A DNA stretch of 64,000 nucleotides from positions 6,929,001 to 6,993,000 of the forward strand of contig NC_011894.1 of the NCBI RefSeq assembly GCF_000022085.1, in the 5' to 3' direction. A model generated the notes under the pieces. It worked only from the letters and a program-made list of their open reading frames with translations. It was not told where the DNA came from and did no database searches. The stretch is from Methylobacterium nodulans ORS 2060 (lineage in GTDB: Bacteria > Pseudomonadota > Alphaproteobacteria > Rhizobiales > Beijerinckiaceae). The translations under genes and the position numbers were made by a program. Of this stretch, positions 5,730 to 61,043 are shown piece by piece (the stretch's first letter is position 1; each line of letters opens with the position of its first letter).

Positions 5730-6877
5730 GGGATGGATCGGATGGTACCCGCCTTCAGCGCTTTCCAGATGGGAGAGTCGTCTCGGCTGATTTCGAACTG
5801 GAACGTCGGATCGTTAGGAACGGTACCATCGTTCTGCTTCGACACAAGCTCCCAGACCAGCCAGCCAGCGCAATTGGGGTCGCGGGTGAGCGTGTTGAGC
5901 CAGCGCGTAAAGGCCTCGGCTGCATCGTGGTTGCCACGTGAATAGCCGAATTCCTCCAACAAAACAGGCTTGTTGTGTTGCGCTGCCAGCTGGCAGAACT
6001 TGGTGATCATCGCATCGAATTCTTGCACCGTTTGCTTGTAGTAGAGCGGGTAACCGTGCCACGTGCCGAAATCCAGAGTCGGGATCGGCAGGTCAACGAG
6101 TGGGCTCGTCACATTGGCATTGCCCGAGCTGACGAGGTGATTGGGATCAAGCGCCTTTACATAGGCCGACATTTCGGCCGTCCAGGCCAAGCGCAGGCTT
6201 TCCGGAGTGGCATTGCCCTCGTTCATCAGATCCCAGGCCATGATGGTCGGATCGTCCCGATAGGCGACGCCGGTCAGGGAATTGACCCTGTTCAGGACGT
6301 AGGACACCCAGGTCTTGTAGTCCCTCTTGGTTCTCGAATCGCTAAAGAAAAATGTCGATTTGTCGTTGCTCTTGTACCACGCCCGCATCTGTTGGGCGCC
6401 GCCGGTGTAGTCCCAGAAATCCAGGAAGGCGATGATGAGTTTCAGGTTGCGTTTGCCGGCTTCCGCGATCAGGAAGTCGATCTTCTGCAACCCGTTTGGG
6501 CCGTCGTTGATACCCATTTGTCGCTCGCGCGCGTCCCAATAGAGGAGGTATGTCCCGTTCACGCCGAGATTGTAGCTGGTCGCCTTGCTCTTCCAGTTCC
6601 AGATCGTCGGCGTGCTGCCGTCGGGCGACCCGATCACTGGCCCGAGAAGGGTGCGGATCGTGTTGGCCCCGAGCGCCACGGCATCGTCGAGCACCTGGGT
6701 GACCTCCTCCTCCGAGCCCCAGGGTAGGTAATGGTTGTTCGCGCCCGCCACGAAGAAGGGCTTCCCGCGAAGGATAAACTTAGTTCCCGCCGTTCGCACG
6801 AAGGGATCCGCCGAGGCGGGCGTCCATGCAGCCAGGGCAAGAAGGCCCAGCGCAGTCCAGATTGCTCTCACGATCAT
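5726..6877 (-). CDS. Secreted glycoside hydrolase family 5 (mannanase-like)
   Basis: A (beta/alpha)8 glycosidase of about 383 residues. The start at 6877 gives a clean Sec signal (IVRAIWTALGLLALAAW, cleavage after ASA). The acid/base glutamate lies in MAWDLMNEGN and the nucleophile in VLLEEFGYSR; both are in the expected order for GH5, and the spacing resembles endo-1,4-beta-mannosidases. FVAGANNHYLPWGS near the N-terminus also fits that group. It probably trims or releases the polysaccharide made by the surrounding genes in the periplasm. A TTG start 36 bp upstream is possible but would spoil the signal peptide. It is first in the minus-strand pair with the GT2. Confidence 0.8.
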   Translation of the reverse strand: MIVRAIWTALGLLALAAWTPASADPFVRTAGTKFILRGKPFFVAGANNHYLPWGSEEEVTQVLDDAVALGANTIRTLLGPVIGSPDGSTPTIWNWKSKATSYNLGVNGTYLLYWDARERQMGINDGPNGLQKIDFLIAEAGKRNLKLIIAFLDFWDYTGGAQQMRAWYKSNDKSTFFFSDSRTKRDYKTWVSYVLNRVNSLTGVAYRDDPTIMAWDLMNEGNATPESLRLAWTAEMSAYVKALDPNHLVSSGNANVTSPLVDLPIPTLDFGTWHGYPLYYKQTVQEFDAMITKFCQLAAQHNKPVLLEEFGYSRGNHDAAEAFTRWLNTLTRDPNCAGWLVWELVSKQNDGTVPNDPTFQFEISRDDSPIWKALKAGTIRSIP

Positions 6878-51924: not shown

Positions 51925-52815
51925 TCACCCGAGGACATCCAGGCCGTTGCGCCGCCACAGCTCGCGGATGATCGCGCTGTGATCGAGCTCGCCGTCCCCA
52001 CTCTCGATCAGATCGGAGAACAAGCGGTCCACCAAGGACAGCACCGGAAGATCCAATCCGAGTGTCGCGGCGTGCGCGAGCGCCGTGCCCGTGTCCTTGA
52101 GCTGATATTTGGCCGGACCGCCCGGCGTGAAATCGCGCGCGATCATGCGAAGCGCGTGCTGCTTCAGGATGGTCGAGTCGGCGAAGCCGCCGAGCAGGGC
52201 CTCGCGCACCTTCGCCGGATCGGCCCCGCCGCGTTCGACGAAGGTGATCGCCTCGGCCACCGTGACGATCGTCGAGGCGACGATGGCCTGATTGGCGAGC
52301 TTGGCCAGTTGCCCGCTGCCGGCAGGGCCGACATGGGTCGGCCGCCCCATCGCGGCGAGAACCGGGCGGATCCGCCCGAAGGCCTCCGGGCTGCCGCCCG
52401 TCATGATGGCGAGCGTTGCGGCGATGGCGCCCGCTTCGCCGCCTGAGACCGGGGCATCGACGTAGAGGATCCCCGATGCCGCGGCGATCTCCGCCTGCCG
52501 GCGCGCGGTCTCGACCGGGATCGAGCTCATCACCGCGAGCACGCTGCCTTGCCGCATGGCGGCGATGACGCCCTCCGGTCCGAGCAGGAGCTCGTCGCAG
52601 ACCGGGCCGGAACTCACCATGCAGATGACGGCATCGGCGTCGCGCGCCGCGTCGCGCCGGTCGGCCGCGATCCGCGCCCCATCGGCGGCGAGCGCCGCGG
52701 CCTTGCCGGGCGACCGGTTCCAGACCTGGACGGCATGGCCGGCCTTGCAGAGGTTGCGCGCCATCGGCGCGCCCATGATGCCGGTGCCGAGAAAGCCGAT
52801 CGTCGCGGGCGCCAT
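51925..52815 (-). CDS. Beta-hydroxyacid dehydrogenase (HIBADH/GarR family)
   Basis: 296 residues. GFLGTGIMGAPMARNL is the NAD(P) motif (GxGxMGxPMA), YVDAPVSGGEAGA the substrate-binding DAPVSGG signature, and GSGQLAKLANQAIV holds the catalytic lysine (in KLxNQ). The family reduces tartronate semialdehyde or oxidises 3-hydroxyisobutyrate and related acids. Here it is last in a three-gene catabolic unit and overlaps the ABM gene by one base (TGATG). A role in a sugar-acid pathway is likely; the substrate is not certain. Confidence 0.88.
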   Translation of the reverse strand: MAPATIGFLGTGIMGAPMARNLCKAGHAVQVWNRSPGKAAALAADGARIAADRRDAARDADAVICMVSSGPVCDELLLGPEGVIAAMRQGSVLAVMSSIPVETARRQAEIAAASGILYVDAPVSGGEAGAIAATLAIMTGGSPEAFGRIRPVLAAMGRPTHVGPAGSGQLAKLANQAIVASTIVTVAEAITFVERGGADPAKVREALLGGFADSTILKQHALRMIARDFTPGGPAKYQLKDTGTALAHAATLGLDLPVLSLVDRLFSDLIESGDGELDHSAIIRELWRRNGLDVLG

Positions 52816-53144
52816 CAGGGCACCTGCGCGCCGCAGCAGGACTGGCTGAGGAAGCGCACCGGGCGCTCCTCGACGACGAGCGCCGGGAACCCGGCCCTGA
52901 ACCGCGCGAGATGGGGGGTTTCGAGATGCGCGTCGAAGGCGGCGCGGTCGTCATAGACCTCGTAGAACACCACGGTCTGCGGATCGCTTTCGCTGACCGC
53001 GACGTCGAAGGTGCGGCAGCCCGGCTCGTGCGCGACCGAGGCGCGGGCGTCCTCGTGCGCGAGGTCCAGGAAGGCACCGAGCTCGCCGGGCCTGACCTTG
53101 AACTCGGCCAGGACGACGAAGGGACGGGAGCGTGACGCGGGCAT
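52815..53144 (-). CDS. ABM-domain protein (YgiN-like)
   Basis: 109 residues of the antibiotic-biosynthesis monooxygenase fold: FVVLAEFKVRPGELGAFLDL, HEPGCRTFDVAVSESDPQTV, FYEVYDDRAAFDAHLETPHL. This dimeric ferredoxin-like fold includes quinol monooxygenases and sugar mutarotase-like helpers. It sits between two dehydrogenases and 97 bp after the first; that gap contains a GC-rich hairpin without a T run. Its catalytic role here is unknown. Confidence 0.8.
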   Translation of the reverse strand: MPASRSRPFVVLAEFKVRPGELGAFLDLAHEDARASVAHEPGCRTFDVAVSESDPQTVVFYEVYDDRAAFDAHLETPHLARFRAGFPALVVEERPVRFLSQSCCGAQVP

Positions 53145-53241: not shown

Positions 53242-54600
53242 TCAGGCCGCCTTCTGGGTCGCGCGACGGAGTCCGTCCTCCATCTGGCGGCGCAGCGCCA
53301 CCACATCGAGGTCGTTCTCCAGCTCCACGTCGTCGAAGCGCACGACCTGGTCCTTGCCGACCGGGCGCTTGAGCTTGACGTTGTGCGCGAGCCCGATGGG
53401 AAGCGCCCCGAGGGCGAGGCTCTTCGAGGCCGGGATGGCATTGGCCCAGACGGCGTAGCCGCCCTCGCCGTCGAGCATCTCGCCGGGCTTCAGGTCGCGC
53501 TTGGCGGTCGCCACCGCGTCGCCGCGGAACTCCTTCGATGAGCCGGTCGGCTCGTTGCGCAGCACCGCCGAGAGCACGCTCACGCTCGTCTCGAGGCCGA
53601 TCATGTGGAAGGGCCGCCACATCGAGCCGTACCAGCCGGACGGGTCGGTCAGCAGGCCGTACTGGCGGAAGCATGCCCTCGTGTACTCGCTCGTCGCCTT
53701 GAAGGTGACGAACACCCCGTAGCGGATGTTGTTGAACACCTCGCGCCCGTCCGGCTCCTGGCTCGCCGCGATGTCGACGAGGCCGCTGCGGGGCAGGCGG
53801 CCGCCATCCGCCACCGGGCGGAACACCCGGGCGAGGTCGTGCAGGCCGGTCGGCGGGAAGGCGAGCCCGTCATCCGGGCAGTCGAGCCCGGTGCCGTTGG
53901 CGACGGCCGCCATCTCTATCGCGGCCTTGGTGCCGTCCGTGAACGAGTTGTACATCTTGGGGTTGAAATCCCCCTTCCGCACCTCCTCCTCGGACCAGCC
54001 GAAGAAGCCCCAGACGGTGTCGGGCGTGGAGTAGCGGTAGCGGGGCTCGAAATTCATGCCCTTGCCCGCGGAGGTCAGCTCGAAGCCACAGGAGCGGGCC
54101 CAGTCCACGAGCTCGCAGATGATGGCGGGCTGGTCGCCATAGGCCATGCTGTAGACGACGCCCTTCTGGCGCGCCCGCTCGGCCAGGAGGGGGCCGCAGA
54201 GCACGTCGGCCTCGACATTGACCATGACGACGTGCTTGCCGGCCTCGATCGCCTGGAGCGCGTGCCGGATGCCGGCGATCGGATGCCCGGTCGCCTCGAT
54301 GATGCACTCGATCTCGTCGCAGGCCGCGAGCGCGCCCGCATCGTCGAGCACGCAGGTCCGGCCGGTCCGCACGGCGTCGCCGAGGGTGGGAGCGGCATAG
54401 CGCTCCTCCGGCCAGCCGACGCGCGCGAGCGAGTCCCGGGCACGGCCGACATTGAGGTCGGCGACGCCCACGACGTGCAGGCCGGCGATGCGCTGCGCCT
54501 GGGCCAGCACCATCGAGCCGAACTTGCCGGCGCCGATTAGGCCGATCCGCACAGGCCGGCCGGCCGATGCGCGCTGCAGCAGCAGGGTGGACAGATTCAT
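53242..54600 (-). CDS. NAD(P)-dependent oxidoreductase with SAF domain
   Basis: 452 residues. RIGLIGAGKFGSMVLAQAQR is the Rossmann motif of a homoserine-dehydrogenase-like enzyme; CIIEATGHPIAGIRHALQAI follows, then a catalytic part around SAGKGMNFEPRYRYS. The last 90 residues (LRNEPTGSSKEFRGDAVATA, KRDLKPGEMLDGEGGYAVW) form a SAF domain as in UxaA and NeuB antifreeze-like modules. Such fusions occur beside TRAP transporters in sugar-acid clusters. Its substrate is unknown. A two-box sequence found again before the transporter lies 153-204 bp upstream. Confidence 0.8.
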   Translation of the reverse strand: MNLSTLLLQRASAGRPVRIGLIGAGKFGSMVLAQAQRIAGLHVVGVADLNVGRARDSLARVGWPEERYAAPTLGDAVRTGRTCVLDDAGALAACDEIECIIEATGHPIAGIRHALQAIEAGKHVVMVNVEADVLCGPLLAERARQKGVVYSMAYGDQPAIICELVDWARSCGFELTSAGKGMNFEPRYRYSTPDTVWGFFGWSEEEVRKGDFNPKMYNSFTDGTKAAIEMAAVANGTGLDCPDDGLAFPPTGLHDLARVFRPVADGGRLPRSGLVDIAASQEPDGREVFNNIRYGVFVTFKATSEYTRACFRQYGLLTDPSGWYGSMWRPFHMIGLETSVSVLSAVLRNEPTGSSKEFRGDAVATAKRDLKPGEMLDGEGGYAVWANAIPASKSLALGALPIGLAHNVKLKRPVGKDQVVRFDDVELENDLDVVALRRQMEDGLRRATQKAA

Positions 54601-54752
54601 GGGCTTCCTCCTCCGGGATTGAATGGCGGCCCGCCGCGGCGCTCAGGTCGGGCTTAAAGAACGCCAGCGCGCAAAGCGGCGCATCCTTCGTGCAACCTCA
54701 CCGGGTCTTCGTCCGCCCCGAGAAGTCGTGACCGGCCGGACGCTAGAAGCGC

Positions 54753-54804
54753 CGTTCTTGAAGGACAATCCAGAATTACGAGCGCATCGTGAAGTCTGGC
54801 TAAA
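54753..54804 (-). promoter_or_regulatory. Two-box LysR-type operator, copy A
   Basis: On the minus strand, box 1 is TTTAGCCAG.CT.CA.GA and box 2 begins TCTGGATTGTCCT, with 12 unconserved bases between. The same boxes at the same spacing occur at 55720-55771 on the plus strand. It starts at the lysR stop codon and lies upstream of the SAF oxidoreductase. Confidence 0.65.
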
Positions 54805-55711
54805 GGGTTGTGGCGGCCTGCGCCCTCTCGGCCGCCCAGCTGTCCCGCTCCGTCCGGAGCCAGTCGAGGAAGGCCCTGACCTTGCGGTAGCGCAGGTGGT
54901 CGTGCGGGCAGGTGATCCACTGCGTCACGAGCGCGATCCGGGGCGGGTCGCGCACCGGACAGGCGAGGCGGTTCGACGCGAGGTCGCCCCACAGCATCAG
55001 GTCGCTCTCGAGCGCGATGCCGAGCCCGCCCGCGGCGGCATCGATCGCCATGTGGGTCCGGTCGAAGAGCAGCCGCCGCCAGCGCGTCGCGGGCGCCACG
55101 CCCGCGAGCTTGAACCAGTGCCCCCACTGCACCTGCGACTTCACGGAGTGAATGAGCCGATGCCGGGCGAGATCCTCCGGCCCGAGGCTCCCGGGCGCCG
55201 CCAGGGACGGGGCGCAGACGGGCCGGAAGTTCTCCTCCACCAGCCCCTCCGCATAGAGGCCCGGCCACCCGCCGGTCCCGTGCCGGATCTCGAGATCGAC
55301 GCTCTCCTTCTGGAAGGCGGCCGGCTCGTTGGTGCCGTCGAGGCGCAGCTCGATGTCGGGATGCGCCTCGACGAAGGCCGCGAGCCGGGGCAGGAGCCAC
55401 TTCGTCGACAGGCTCGGCGTGGCGCGGACCGTGAGCGTGGTGACCGACCGGAAGCCCTGGATGCGCTGCGTGGCCTCCATGATCCGGTCGATCTCGCCGC
55501 CGATCATCTCGAAATAGCGCTCGCCCGCCTCCGTCAGGACGATGTTGCGCCCGGACTTGCCGATGAGGGCGGTGCCGAGGCTGACCTCCAGGGTCTGGAT
55601 CTGCTGGCTCACCGCCGAGGGCGTGACGCCGAGCTCGTCCGCCGCCCGGGTGATGCTCCCCGAGCGGGCGACGGCGTGGAAGACGCTGATGGCGCGAAAG
55701 GGGACCGGCAT
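54800..55711 (-). CDS. LysR-type regulator (GcvA-like)
   Basis: 303 residues. The winged helix-turn-helix is at the N-terminus (AVARSGSITRAADELGVTPS, AVSQQIQTLEVSLGTALIGK), followed by a linker and a ligand-binding domain in two lobes (TLTVRATPSLSTKWLLPRLA, AAGGLGIALESDLMLWG). The WLLPRL and LGIAL segments place it with GcvA-type members. It lies between the minus-strand oxidoreductase genes and the plus-strand TRAP transporter. Operator-like boxes occur 9 bp before its own start and at its stop codon, suggesting control of both arms and of itself. Confidence 0.9.
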   Translation of the reverse strand: MPVPFRAISVFHAVARSGSITRAADELGVTPSAVSQQIQTLEVSLGTALIGKSGRNIVLTEAGERYFEMIGGEIDRIMEATQRIQGFRSVTTLTVRATPSLSTKWLLPRLAAFVEAHPDIELRLDGTNEPAAFQKESVDLEIRHGTGGWPGLYAEGLVEENFRPVCAPSLAAPGSLGPEDLARHRLIHSVKSQVQWGHWFKLAGVAPATRWRRLLFDRTHMAIDAAAGGLGIALESDLMLWGDLASNRLACPVRDPPRIALVTQWITCPHDHLRYRKVRAFLDWLRTERDSWAAERAQAATTL

Positions 55712-55719
55712 GGCGATAG

Positions 55720-55771
55720 TTTAGCCAGGCTACATGAACGCGCAAACAATCTGGATTGTCCTACATGAATG
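55720..55771 (+). promoter_or_regulatory. Two-box LysR-type operator, copy B
   Basis: Plus-strand box 1 matches copy A at 15 of 18 positions and box 2 at 19 of 22, with equal 12-base spacing. Each box ends in CTACATGA, three helical turns apart. It lies 9 bp before lysR and 215 bp before dctP. A hairpin (CCCCCT/AGGGGG) follows at about 55803-55822 in the dctP leader. Confidence 0.65.
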
Positions 55772-55985
55772 CCCTTCCTAGTGTCGGGCAGGGAACGAGA
55801 AGAGCCCCCTCGCGAAGGGGGCCGACAGGGAGGACGACGGAGGCGGGACCCGCGCTCCGCAGGGCGGACGCCCCGCGACCGCCGGGCCCGGGACCGACCC
55901 GGATTCCGGGACACGACGCATTCTCAACGGAAACGATGCCGAACTGCCCCTCGCGGCAGATGAAGGCACGCTCGGAGGAAACACC

Positions 55986-57023
55986 ATGACGAACGAGCCG
56001 GATTCCACCAGCGACGGCGGCCTCTCGCGCCGGAGCTTCCTGACCGCCGCGGCCGCCGTCCCGCTGGTCGCGATCCGCACCCGGCCGGCGCTGGCGGCCG
56101 AGTTCAGCTACAAGCTCGCGACGGGCCAGTCCCTCACCCAGCCCATCAATGCCCGCCTCGAGCAGGCCACCCAGCGCATCCGCGAGGCCTCGGGCGGGCG
56201 CCTGGAGATGAAGTTCTTCCCCGCGAGCCAGCTCGGCTCGGACACGGACCTGATCACGCAGGTGCGCTCGGGCGGGATCGAGTTCCTCAACATCGCCGGA
56301 TCGGTGATCTCGACCGTCGCGGCGGGCGCCGCGATCACCAATGTCGGCTTCGCCTTCGCGGATTACGAGCAGGTCTGGCGGGGGGCGGACGGGCCGATCG
56401 GCCAGTACGTGCGCAGCCAGATCGAGAAGGCGGGTCTGCTCGTCCCGGCCAAGGCCGCGGACAACAGCTTCCGGCAGATCACCTCGGCGTCGAAGCCGAT
56501 CAAGACCCCGGAGGACCTGAAAGGCTACCGCATCCGCGTGCCGGTCTCGCCGATCTTCACCTCGCTGTTCTCGGCGCTCGGGGCGAACCCCACCTCCATC
56601 AACTTCAACGAGCTCTACACCGCGCTGCAGACCCGGCTGGTCGACGGCCAGGAGAACGGGCTCGTGGCGATCGACGCCGGCAAGCTCTACGAGGTGCAGA
56701 AATACGTCTCCGAGACGAACCACATCTGGGATCCCTTCTGGATCGTGGCGAACCGGCGCGCCTTCGGCCGCCTGCCCGAGAGCCTGCAGGAGATCGTCCG
56801 GCGCGAGTTCGACCGGGCGGCGATGGAGCAGCGCGAGGACGTCGCGCGGCTGAATGGCACGCTGAAGACGCAGCTTTCGGCCAAGGGGCTGGTTTTCGAG
56901 AGCGCCGACAAGGAGGCGTTCCGCCGGAGCCTCGGCCAGGCCGGCTTCTACCGCGACTGGAAGGAGAAGTTCGGGCAAGAGGCCTGGAAGGCCCTCGAAT
57001 CCGTCACGGGAGCCCTCGCATGA
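55986..57023 (+). CDS. dctP: TRAP transporter solute-binding protein
   Basis: 345 residues. A twin-arginine signal (LSRRSFLTAAAAVPLVAI) sends it to the periplasm folded. LEQATQRIREASGGRLEMKF, FFPASQLGSDTDLITQVRSG, and GYRIRVPVSPIFTSLFSALG give the DctP fold; the conserved arginine that holds a carboxylate is in IRVP. GQENGLVAIDAGKLYEVQKY is the usual hinge segment. The ligand is probably a sugar acid or other small carboxylate. GGAGGAAACACC precedes the start, and it overlaps the permease gene by 4 bp. Confidence 0.9.
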   Translation: MTNEPDSTSDGGLSRRSFLTAAAAVPLVAIRTRPALAAEFSYKLATGQSLTQPINARLEQATQRIREASGGRLEMKFFPASQLGSDTDLITQVRSGGIEFLNIAGSVISTVAAGAAITNVGFAFADYEQVWRGADGPIGQYVRSQIEKAGLLVPAKAADNSFRQITSASKPIKTPEDLKGYRIRVPVSPIFTSLFSALGANPTSINFNELYTALQTRLVDGQENGLVAIDAGKLYEVQKYVSETNHIWDPFWIVANRRAFGRLPESLQEIVRREFDRAAMEQREDVARLNGTLKTQLSAKGLVFESADKEAFRRSLGQAGFYRDWKEKFGQEAWKALESVTGALA

Positions 57024-58897
57024 GCGCGGCGGCCGACCTGCCGGGCCGGGCTCACGCGGCGCCGGCCACCCCGTCCGACTGGCTCGCCGTCGCCGAGCGC
57101 TGGCTCCGGCTCGCCGTCGAGATCCCGGCCGCCCTCCTGGTCGCCGCCGAGGTGCTGATCCTGTTCGCCGGCATCGGCGCGCGGGCGCTCGGCCATCCGA
57201 TCATCTGGAGCGACGAGCTCGCCTCGATCCTGTTCCTGTGGCTCGCCATGCTCGGCAGCGTGGTGGCGATCCAGCGCGGCGAGCACATGCGGCTCACCTT
57301 CGTGGTCGGCTCCCTGTCGCCGCGGGCGCAGGCGTGGTGCGAGGCGCTCGCGGTCGGGGCGGTGTTCGCCTTCCTCGTCCTGCTGCTGCACGCGGCCTAC
57401 GACTACACGGACGACCAGTCCTTCGTGGAGACGCCGGCCCTCGGCTGGCCGGGGACGATCCGGGCGCTCGCGGTGCCGGTCGGGTTCGTGGCGGCGCTGC
57501 TGAGCTCCTCCTTGCGTCTCGCCCGCCACGGCATCGCCGATCTCCTCGGTGTCGGGCTGGTTCTAGGCGGGCTCGCCGCGCTCCTCGCCCTCGGCGCGCC
57601 GGCCCTGACCGGGATGGGCAACTGGTCCCTCGTCGTCTTCTTCGTCGGGCTCCTGGGCGTCGGCATCGTGGCGGGCGTGCCGATCGCGTTCTCCTTCGCG
57701 CTCGCCACCTCGGCCTACCTGCTCACCGTGACCTCGACGCCGCTGACCATCGTGGTCGGCCGCATGGACGAGGGCATGAGCAGCCTGATCCTGCTCGCCA
57801 TCCCGCTCTTCGTGCTCCTCGGCCAGCTCGTCGAGGTGACCGGGATGGCGCGGGTGATGGTCGCGTTCCTGGCCTCGCTGCTCGGCCACGTGAAGGCGGG
57901 CATGTCCTACGTGCTCCTCGGCGCGATGCTGCTCGTCTCCGGCATCTCCGGCTCGAAGACCGCGGACATGGCCGCGGTCGCCCCGGTGCTGTTTCCCGAG
58001 ATGCGCCGCCGCGGCATGAAGGACGGCGAGTTGCTGTCGCTGCTCGCCGCCTCGGGCGCCATGAGCGAGACGATCCCGCCCTCGATCGTCCTCATCGCCA
58101 TTGCGTCGGTCACGGGGGTGTCGATCGCGGCGCTGTTCACGGCCGGGATCCTGCCCGCGCTCGTGCTGGCTGTGGTGCTCGCCGCCGTCGCCCGCTACCG
58201 CGCGGGCAGGGAGGAGGATGCCGTCACGGTGGCGCGGGCCCCGGCTTCCGTGGTCGGGAAGACGCTCGTGGTTGCGCTCCCGGCGCTGCTGCTGCCGTTC
58301 CTGATCCGCACCGCGGTGGTGGAGGGCGTCGCCACGGCGACGGAGGTCTCCACCATCGGCATCGCCTACGCGCTGCTCCTCGGGCTCCTCGTCTACCGCG
58401 GCGGTCTGCGGGCGAGGGCGGTGCTGCCGATGCTGGCGCGCACGGCCTCGCTGTCGGGGGCGATCCTCTTCATCGTCGGCGCGGCGAGCGCCATGGCCTG
58501 GGCGCTGACGCAGTCCGGCTTCTCGCACGACCTCGCCCGGGCGATGGCCGCCGTCCCGGGCGGGCAGGTCGGCTTCCTGCTGATCTCGGTCGTCGCCTTC
58601 ATGGTGCTCGGAAGCCTGCTGGAGGGCATCCCGGCCATCGTGCTCTTCGGACCCCTGCTGTTCCCGATCGCCCATCAGTTCGGCATCCACGAGGTGCACT
58701 ACAGCATGGTGGTGATCCTCGCGATGGGCCTCGGCCTGTTCGCGCCGCCATTCGGCCTCTGCTACTACGCGGCCTGCATCATCGGGCAGGTGTCGCCCGA
58801 ATCCGGAATGCGTCGGATCTGGATCTATCTCGGCGCGCTGTTCCTCGGGCTGCTCGTGCTGACCTTCGTGCCCTGGTTCTCGACCGGGTTCCTCTGA
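57020..58897 (+). CDS. TRAP transporter permease, fused DctQ-DctM
   Basis: 625 residues. The first 170 are the small DctQ subunit with four helices (HPIIWSDELASILFLWLAML carries the family's WSDE-like mark). From about 195 on is DctM with twelve helices: GIVAGVPIAFSFALATSAYL, AIPLFVLLGQLVEVTGMARV, GISGSKTADMAAVAPVLFPE, ASGAMSETIPPSIVLIAIAS. The fusion is a known variant. With DctP it imports its ligand using a sodium gradient. A perfect 11-bp stem follows at 58916-58949, without a T run. Confidence 0.9.
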   Translation: MSAAADLPGRAHAAPATPSDWLAVAERWLRLAVEIPAALLVAAEVLILFAGIGARALGHPIIWSDELASILFLWLAMLGSVVAIQRGEHMRLTFVVGSLSPRAQAWCEALAVGAVFAFLVLLLHAAYDYTDDQSFVETPALGWPGTIRALAVPVGFVAALLSSSLRLARHGIADLLGVGLVLGGLAALLALGAPALTGMGNWSLVVFFVGLLGVGIVAGVPIAFSFALATSAYLLTVTSTPLTIVVGRMDEGMSSLILLAIPLFVLLGQLVEVTGMARVMVAFLASLLGHVKAGMSYVLLGAMLLVSGISGSKTADMAAVAPVLFPEMRRRGMKDGELLSLLAASGAMSETIPPSIVLIAIASVTGVSIAALFTAGILPALVLAVVLAAVARYRAGREEDAVTVARAPASVVGKTLVVALPALLLPFLIRTAVVEGVATATEVSTIGIAYALLLGLLVYRGGLRARAVLPMLARTASLSGAILFIVGAASAMAWALTQSGFSHDLARAMAAVPGGQVGFLLISVVAFMVLGSLLEGIPAIVLFGPLLFPIAHQFGIHEVHYSMVVILAMGLGLFAPPFGLCYYAACIIGQVSPESGMRRIWIYLGALFLGLLVLTFVPWFSTGFL

Positions 58898-59838: not shown

Positions 59839-59990
59839 CGGATGTCGAGGAGAAGTTTCCGACCGAATGTCAGTACTGTCGCTGAAAGCGGTCGCTGCGC
59901 GGATTCCTGTGCTGATGGTGTGGACGGCCCCCCACGGCATCAGTGTGTGCCAGAATGAGGTCGTCAGGATCTCATCCGAGGAGGCCGTCC

Positions 59991-61043
59991 ATGAGCGAGA
60001 TTATCCGCATTGGGCTGGATACGTCCAAGTCTGTTTTCCAGCTGCACGGGGTCGATGCGGCCGAGCGGCCGGTGCTGAAGCTGAAGCTGTCGCGCAGCAA
60101 GATGCTGGCCTTCTTCGCCCAGCAGCCGCCCTGCCTGGTGGCGCTGGAAGCCTGCGGGGCCTCGCATCACTGGGCCCGCACCCTGGCCGGGCTGGGCCAC
60201 ACGGTGCGCCTGATCGCGCCCCAGCACGTCAAGCCCTACGTGCCCGGCTCCAAGACCGACGCGGCCGATGCGGCGGGCCTGTGCGAGGCGGTCAGCCGGC
60301 CGCAGATGCGCTTCGTGCCGGTCAAGACCGCCGAGCAGCAGGCGGCGCTGATGCTCACGGGCCTGCGCGAGCAATGGCTCAAGCGGCGCACCCAGGTCAG
60401 CAACAGCCTGCGCGGGTATGCGGCCGAGTTCGGGCTGGCGGCGCCTCAGGGGCTGGCCCGTCTCGCGGAACTGGTCGCGCGCCTGGCCGAGGACCCGCGC
60501 GTGCCGGCTCTGGCCCGCCCGCTGTTTGCGGCGCTGTGGGCCGAGTACCAGGAGATCGAGGCCCGGGTGCAGGAGGCCGACCGCCAGCTCAAAGTGTGGC
60601 AGCGGGGCAACGCCAGCTGCCGGCGGCTGAGCGCCGTGCCGGGGATCGGTCCGGTGGGCGCGGCGCTGCTGGTGCTGAAGACGCCGGCCCCCCAGGCGTT
60701 CCGCAGCGGGCGGGACTTTGCGGCCTGGCTGGGGCTGACGCCCAAGGATCACGCGACCGCGGGCAAGCCGCGGCTGGGCGGGATCACGCGGGCGGGCGAC
60801 GAGCAACTGCGCAGCGTGCTGGTGGCCGGCGCGATGGCGGTGCTGCGCCAGCTCAAGCCGGAGAGCGCGGGGCTGGCGGGCTGGCTGACGCGGCTGGTGG
60901 CGCGCAAGGCGCGGCGGCTGGTGGCGGTGGCGCTGGCCAACAAGCTGGCGCGGATCGCCTGGCGGCTGTTGGTGAGCGGGGCGAGCTACGACCCGGCCCG
61001 GGCCGGCCCGCCGATGGGAGGGGCGGAGCCGGCCCGGGCCTGA
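59991..61043 (+). CDS. IS110-family transposase
   Basis: 350 residues, intact. The N-terminal DEDD domain has IGLDTSKSVFQLHG (Asp), LVALEACGASHHWARTL (Glu) and GSKTDAADAAGLCEAV (Asp pair). The C-terminal Tnp_20 domain has SAVPGIGPVGAALLV with the helix-hairpin-helix and the conserved serine region near VAGAMAVLRQL. IS110 elements lack long inverted repeats, and recent work shows some are guided by a bridge RNA from their flanking sequence. GAGGAGG just upstream selects this start. The element ends are not readable, roughly 59.9-61.1 kb. Confidence 0.9.
   Translation: MSEIIRIGLDTSKSVFQLHGVDAAERPVLKLKLSRSKMLAFFAQQPPCLVALEACGASHHWARTLAGLGHTVRLIAPQHVKPYVPGSKTDAADAAGLCEAVSRPQMRFVPVKTAEQQAALMLTGLREQWLKRRTQVSNSLRGYAAEFGLAAPQGLARLAELVARLAEDPRVPALARPLFAALWAEYQEIEARVQEADRQLKVWQRGNASCRRLSAVPGIGPVGAALLVLKTPAPQAFRSGRDFAAWLGLTPKDHATAGKPRLGGITRAGDEQLRSVLVAGAMAVLRQLKPESAGLAGWLTRLVARKARRLVAVALANKLARIAWRLLVSGASYDPARAGPPMGGAEPARA

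Follow-up and report, generated by a model that had tools for sequence, protein, structure and literature searches.

In Methylobacterium nodulans ORS 2060, two similar blocks of DNA, one on each strand, flank a single lysR gene and face two different operons. This raises the question whether both are operators of the same regulator, and whether this regulator is the LysR protein encoded between them. The window, i.e., the whole stretch of 64,000 nucleotides that was analysed, covers positions 6,929,001 to 6,993,000 of contig NC_011894.1. From sequence comparison we consider it very likely (probability about 0.88) that the two blocks, copies A and B, represent one LysR-type operator-promoter present twice and bound by the intervening LysR, copy A acting on the enzyme operon and copy B on the TRAP transporter operon, and probably on lysR as well.

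Genes of the locus and the two sites around lysR

The regulator (303 aa, 54800..55711, minus strand) is GcvA-like and contains both domains of a LysR-type transcriptional regulator, HTH_1 (PF00126, 7.9e-21) and LysR_substrate (PF03466, 8.9e-33). Its best NCBIfam match is the GcvA subfamily NF008352, at 258.8 bits and below the cut-off of 288. The nearest solved structure is 8y6u_H, the Glycine cleavage system transcriptional activator (2.5e-49), followed by the AmpR structure 5mmh (2e-24). Antisense to lysR, an open frame of 381 aa (54623-55768) spans the gene and nearly both operators; it is probably a high-GC by-product.

The enzyme arm, on the minus strand, comprises three genes, which we infer to form one operon. 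Enzyme 1 (452 aa, 53242..54600) is a DXR-II-like oxidoreductase with a DRL_cat catalytic domain (PF21135, 3.8e-55; 186.8 bits against a cut-off of 27) and a SAF domain (9.1e-6). It matches the PDB entries 3upl/3upy, which we take to be the Brucella protein (DXR-II), at about 3e-59. Enzyme 2 (100 aa, 52815..53117) is an ABM-domain protein (PF03992, 4.3e-21), and enzyme 3 (296 aa, 51925..52815) an NAD-dependent reductase of the hydroxyisobutyrate / tartronate-semialdehyde type (PF03446, PF14833), its match to TIGR01505 (275.3 bits) lying under the cut-off of 340.75. A protein search with enzyme 1 returned at least 7999 relatives at 1e-40 from 8000 candidates scored; it gave no function, with only generic names among the 120 matches listed (homoserine-dehydrogenase-like, NAD(P)H-dependent oxidoreductase, SAF, FlgA). 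The same genome encodes a second DXR-II-like paralog (58%) at G000:C7:3820435-3821763.

The TRAP arm, on the plus strand, encodes the solute-binding protein DctP (345 aa, 55986..57023; PF03480, 1.6e-69) and the fused permease DctQM (625 aa, 57020..58897; PF04290 and PF06808). The PDB entry nearest to DctP is 4oan (5.3e-105), in which density was reportedly modelled as 2-acetolactate. No paper was found in the literature on the 4oan ligand, and the predicted structure of DctP (mean pLDDT 35.3) was too poor to reach ligand-bearing relatives. About 1 kb beyond the TRAP operon, a 366-aa frame (59943-61043) has, by eye, the look of an IS110-type transposase. The initial annotation had tied the transporter to all three enzymes. 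For enzymes 1 and 2 this holds, as both are present with the TRAP genes in 13/13 named long loci of the genus, but enzyme 3 is found in only 10 of the 13. A single co-regulated pathway, of a familiar type, seems to comprise both the importer and the enzymes.

Copy A (54753-54804, compared as plus-strand text) points to the enzyme operon on the minus strand, and copy B (55720-55771, compared as minus-strand text) to the TRAP operon on the plus strand, in line with the earlier claim that each faces a different operon; both copies have the same orientation relative to their own target operon. An ungapped recount bears out the claimed likeness of the two 52-bp blocks, with 19/22 identities in the 22-bp box (box 1) and 15/18 in the 18-bp box (box 2) at the equal spacing of 12 bp, the spacer itself agreeing at 1/12 positions. 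The placement was also correct: the lysR stop codon TAG (54802-54800) and the two bases preceding it fall within copy A, and copy B stops 9 bp short of the lysR start. The likeness runs on beyond box 1, up to TAGCGT in copy A and TAGTGT in copy B. The best 52-nt match between one lysR flank and the other has 38 identities; 500 dinucleotide-shuffled versions of one flank gave a mean of 27.3 (sd 1.3) and never more than 32. Across the genome of 8,839,022 bp, the pattern GGACAATCCAGA-N15..25-GGCTAAA has exactly two matches, copies A and B, and its reversal has none; relaxing the search to a 39-nt pattern that tolerates 2 mismatches also recovers these two copies only, with a single match for the reversed control.

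Anatomy of the site and predicted promoters

LysR-type operators combine an upstream dyad of the T-N11-A type with a second site near the -35, at a fixed spacing. The counts over 34 sites and the profile described below display this layout, with an upstream dyad, a second site by the -35 and fixed spacing, and copies A and B are predicted to be LysR-type operator-promoters. Toward the operon, the site reads TTTAG-N5-CTWCA, 15 bp, WCTGGATTGTC-CTWCA, 13-14 bp and TANNNT. In copy A, box 2 is the dyad TTTAG-N5-CTTCA (54787..54804, minus strand); it contains the lysR stop codon and is where the regulator of the enzyme operon is predicted to bind. Box 1 (54753..54774, minus strand) carries the half-sites TCTGGATTG and CTTCA and overlaps the predicted -35, TTGTCC (54768-54763, minus strand); the predicted -10, TAGCGT (54740..54745, minus strand), is located 17 bp past TTGTCC. 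In copy B, box 2 is the dyad TTTAG-N5-CTACA (55720..55737, plus strand), at which the regulator of the TRAP operon is predicted to bind, 9 bp away from the start of lysR. Its box 1 (55750..55771, plus strand), with the half-sites TCTGGATTG and CTACA, overlaps the predicted -35, TTGTCC (55756-55761, plus strand), and is followed by the predicted -10, TAGTGT (55779..55784, plus strand), a weak match to the consensus. That box 1 lies over the predicted -35, and that the stop codon is part of an operator, had both been overlooked in the initial annotation. A GC-rich hairpin (55803-55823) is situated just past the point where the TRAP transcript is predicted to start, within its long leader.

Of the 18 LysR-bearing genomes of the genus, 17 (34 sites) entered the column counts; L043, which is nearly identical to L042, was omitted. 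TTTAG is intact in 31/34 sites, while CT..A at positions 11-15, CT at 32-33 and CTNCA at 42-46 occur in all 34; WCTGGATTG is present in 28, and TA...T occupies positions 60-65 in 26 sites and is shifted one base further on in 7. In the profile, T-A-N3-T is conserved at positions 60, 61 and 65. The lysR stop codon falls within the downstream dyad in 17/17 genomes (TAG in 16, TAA in one). With half-sites at positions 11, 32 and 42, i.e., 21 and 10 bp apart, the three lie on about one helix face. In more distant loci the same positions often read CTAAA, TCTAAATTG and CTAA, suggesting that the ancestral half-site was CTAA, as in GcvA.

TTGTCC (37-42) is separated by 17 bp from TANNNT (60-65), and TTGTCC-N17-TANNNT is plausible as a weak promoter. 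A consensus promoter scan called none at either arm, the -10 agreeing with TATAAT at only 3/6 positions, so that the placement of the dyad centre (position 8) about 64 bp before the predicted start, i.e., near -64, hangs on that prediction. As TTGTCC-N17-TANNNT is conserved together with box 1, it is conceivable that the promoter alone is under conservation, perhaps one read by a specific sigma factor, and that box 2 is incidental. We regard this as very improbable. Box 2 is a symmetric dyad in fixed phase to box 1, and the composite occurs only twice in each site-bearing genus genome. Moreover, though located some 20-35 bp upstream of the -35, box 2 is nearly as conserved as box 1, with mean major-base frequencies of 0.85 and 0.83 versus 0.89 and 0.92, and of 0.57 and 0.55 in a comparison region of 15 bases beyond the -10; pure promoter conservation was rejected because of this conservation of box 2 upstream of the -35. 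The same counts qualify the claim of a free spacer. It stands for copy A against copy B, but within each arm the spacer is kept across the 17 genus genomes (mean major-base frequency 0.83 in the upstream and 0.85 in the downstream arm).

The position of box 2 in copy B makes it a likely place for lysR autoregulation, and in the genus the upstream dyad ends 8 bp before the lysR start. Two observations made by eye are suggestive only: TAAACT, which overlaps the upstream dyad in many of the genus genomes, is a candidate -10 for lysR, and L019/L074 carries a dyad TGTAG-N5-CTAAA at the lysR start and no box 1, which would fit a site serving lysR alone.

Distribution of the site with lysR, operons and importers

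Genus counts were restricted to the 111 G-numbered genomes, because the named loci and these genomes partly share species. A 42-nt pattern of the site (at most 2 mismatches) is found in 17/111 genomes, with one copy per strand in each (34 sites), and its reversal in 0/111. The LysR is encoded in 18/111, including all 17 site-bearing genomes, and an enzyme 1 gene at 85% or more is present in the identical set of 18. In the eighteenth, G583, the sites have diverged (L076) and were missed by the genus pattern; the other 93 genomes have no site at 2 mismatches or fewer. Both boxes, at 12-bp spacing, adjoin orthologous lysR genes, in agreement with the expectation of the initial annotation that they would be conserved at such loci.

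To score more distant sites, a profile of 48 distinct sites was used. We kept 55 loci, dropping the rows of the window's own place (L001, L002 and L021) and the shorter of overlapping stretches for one place. Of these, 27 were scanned leave-one-out, with a profile lacking the locus's own sites and those identical to them at 60/80 positions or more. Later loci were scanned with all 48 sites; L078, L079, L080 and L118 were not in the profile, whereas the score of G150 (L082) is not independent because its site belonged to it. The non-genus loci were fetched via the LysR and thus show where sites lie and how many there are, but not whether they exist in the absence of the LysR, so that the nearness of site and lysR among them is partly selection. 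The best score reached 16.2-71.9 in 24/27 loci, compared with at most 9.0 in 108 shuffled and 14.1 in 35 reversed loci; L071 (16.2), L079 (17.3) and L020 (18.6) are little above the reversed-locus maximum. L069 and L072 were initial misses whose stretches ended before the enzyme promoter, and the extended DNA has the site (L079, 17.3; L078, 40.2). A true miss is G532 (L075/L081, LysR 55%), where the gene order is kept but merely a degenerate match (-6.8) precedes the enzyme gene.

The site tracks the LysR, not the enzyme. Enzyme matches at E 1e-120 or better occur in 52/111 genus genomes, mostly as 51-59% paralogs, and 12/12 scanned genus loci with a 56-58% paralog have no site (best score 4.8), whereas enzymes of merely 53-56% that stand beside this LysR (G010, G150, G115, G090) do have it. 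Three genomes of another family, with the enzyme at 71-72%, gave scores of 15.4, 2.9 and -9.8; their best LysR relatives are 36-38% identical and in two of them lie about 4 kb from the enzyme gene, and the system may extend further in diverged form.

These results bear on the alternative that the operators are real but bound by another regulator encoded elsewhere, the intervening LysR acting on something else. Many LysR-type genes could be considered, with 94 first-look candidates in this genome (G000); the profile scan found no site beside lysR itself at L059, L069, L071 and L072, and co-occurrence at the non-genus loci, picked via the LysR, is not independent. Nevertheless, we consider this alternative unlikely, given the presence of this LysR in 17/17 site-bearing genus genomes, the match of a GcvA-like dyad to a GcvA-like LysR, and the contrast between paralogs elsewhere and enzymes beside the LysR. 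The initial annotation had held that the LysR surely binds both copies. Co-occurrence in the genus, sites that follow the operons and the GcvA-like dyad support the claim, and we lower "surely" to very likely, the binding being predicted.

Outside the genus, a site scoring 16 or more precedes 21/22 of the enzyme-containing operons in reach. This count omits L017, where the contig ends before the enzyme gene, L074, which covers the same locus as L019, and the three genomes L120-L122; it includes L066 and L067, with a shared TRAP-enzyme operon, and G150, whose site was in the training set. Split loci with a central lysR have two sites, and loci in which the recognised target genes are all on one strand (L018, L020, L066, L067, L071) have a single one. 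At L059 the enzyme and TRAP operons face apart, away from lysR, and both sites lie back to back between them. At L061, L064 and L073 a distant enzyme operon has its own site, and in G247 the enzyme gene 6.7 kb from lysR also has one (L080). As judged from these arrangements, the sites travel with the operons through rearrangement. At L015 (a Bradyrhizobium MAG), an upstream site at 5912-5991 scores 35.3, yet no importer was recognised on that side.

As inverted repeats that flank a single gene of about 0.9 kb, copies A and B might also be leftovers of a duplication or the terminal inverted repeats of a lysR-carrying mobile unit, with no regulatory role. The rearranged loci contradict this, as the sites there have parted from lysR and accompany the operons (L059, L064, L073), and mobile-element repeats were ruled out because sites are found away from lysR. 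The copy number is one or three at some loci, the conserved columns show dyad and promoter structure, and the spacer of each arm is retained from species to species, leaving the idea a negligible probability.

Elsewhere an unrelated ABC importer, likewise overlooked before, takes part. An ABC binding protein of the sugar type is encoded at 7/55 loci (L064 and six with 67-84% to that of L064), a minimum, since many of the 55 stretches are not long enough to establish its absence, and the site precedes it in 7/7. Two binding proteins tested matched Peripla_BP_4 and one permease BPD_transp_2, and the nearest solved structures to the one binding protein tested are allose and ribose binders. L068 has three sites, one each for the TRAP, enzyme and ABC operons; at L019/L074, no site was found before an upstream 31% relative of the ABC binding protein. 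It is conceivable, though we hold it only tentatively, that this LysR governs a regulon for catabolism built around the DXR-II-like oxidoreductase, with an exchangeable importer (TRAP, ribose/allose-type ABC, or both as in L068) under the same operator. If so, the oxidoreductase would not be an isoprenoid enzyme but would act in catabolism, controlled by LysR, as an isomerase-reductase on a short or branched sugar and the corresponding acid, and the shared pathway intermediate would be the inducer.

Proposed mechanism and comparison with known systems

In our preferred reading, with the intervening LysR binding both copies, one LysR dimer would occupy the TTTAG-N5-CTWCA dyad of box 2, centred near -64, and the second dimer of a tetramer would reach the CT half-sites of box 1 that overlap the -35. 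Binding of a pathway inducer would shift the tetramer and lead to recruitment of RNA polymerase from the predicted start sites, so that the importer and enzyme operons would be switched on jointly. Occupation of box 2 in copy B would also limit lysR transcription, because it is only 9 bp from the lysR start.

With these results, the resemblance of two copies becomes a defined regulon, whose profile can serve to detect further members. The hunt for the substrate of the DXR-II-like enzyme is narrowed, as it is tied to one regulator and two kinds of importer, and the loci form a natural series in which the operator is kept with its operons through gene rearrangement and transporter replacement. 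The mechanism is already known in kind; judged by title or abstract start among the matches listed, no earlier description of the operator, regulon, profile or transporter swap was found. Literature on DLO2, the apionate/apiose pathway and methylerythritol catabolism likewise offered no substrate for the cluster, by title or abstract start among the matches listed.

In the portion of the source available, the E. coli gcvA-gcvB region is described as containing a 15-bp inverted repeat, ATTAG-n5-CTAAT, with IR1 centred at -65 and IR2 at -43, adjoining the -35; GcvA has a divergent target, represses itself and acts on more than one target operon (PMC5002191). Similar to GcvA, the system described here combines a LysR-type regulator with an inverted-repeat dyad, the first repeat being at -65 there and at a predicted position of about -64 here. 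The TTAG-n5-CT core is the same and the outer letters differ, the 3' half being CTNCA in 33/34 genus sites (compared with the operator in the available part of PMC5002191). The half-sites are TTTAG/CTWCA, with CTAAA in more distant loci, and in contrast to the GcvA dyad at -43 the second element consists of CT half-sites at distances of 21 and 31 bp from the first. The regulator is also not GcvA proper (258.8 versus 288 bits), and the two sites in the genome are at the TRAP and enzyme operons, not at glycine cleavage genes or gcvB; the targets across loci comprise, besides the DXR-II-like enzyme operon, an importer of either the TRAP or the ABC type. The comparison with AmpR, whose structure 5mmh is second-nearest to the LysR, covers the protein.

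On the enzyme side, the comparison is with the DXR-II / DLO oxidoreductases, to which enzyme 1 is linked by PF21135 and 3upl/3upy. Methylobacterium proteins are tabulated under DLO2, an uncharacterised family, and four DLO1/DLO2 representatives did not replace DXR in complementation, according to the available part of the source (PMC3847144). None of the accessions tabulated there for Methylobacterium was matched to this gene, and the genome has two paralogs; the main text, as available, makes no mention of LysR, TRAP or a transporter (PMC3847144). In contrast to the picture in that text, the gene studied here belongs to a transporter-linked regulon, which points to catabolism and not to isoprenoid synthesis.
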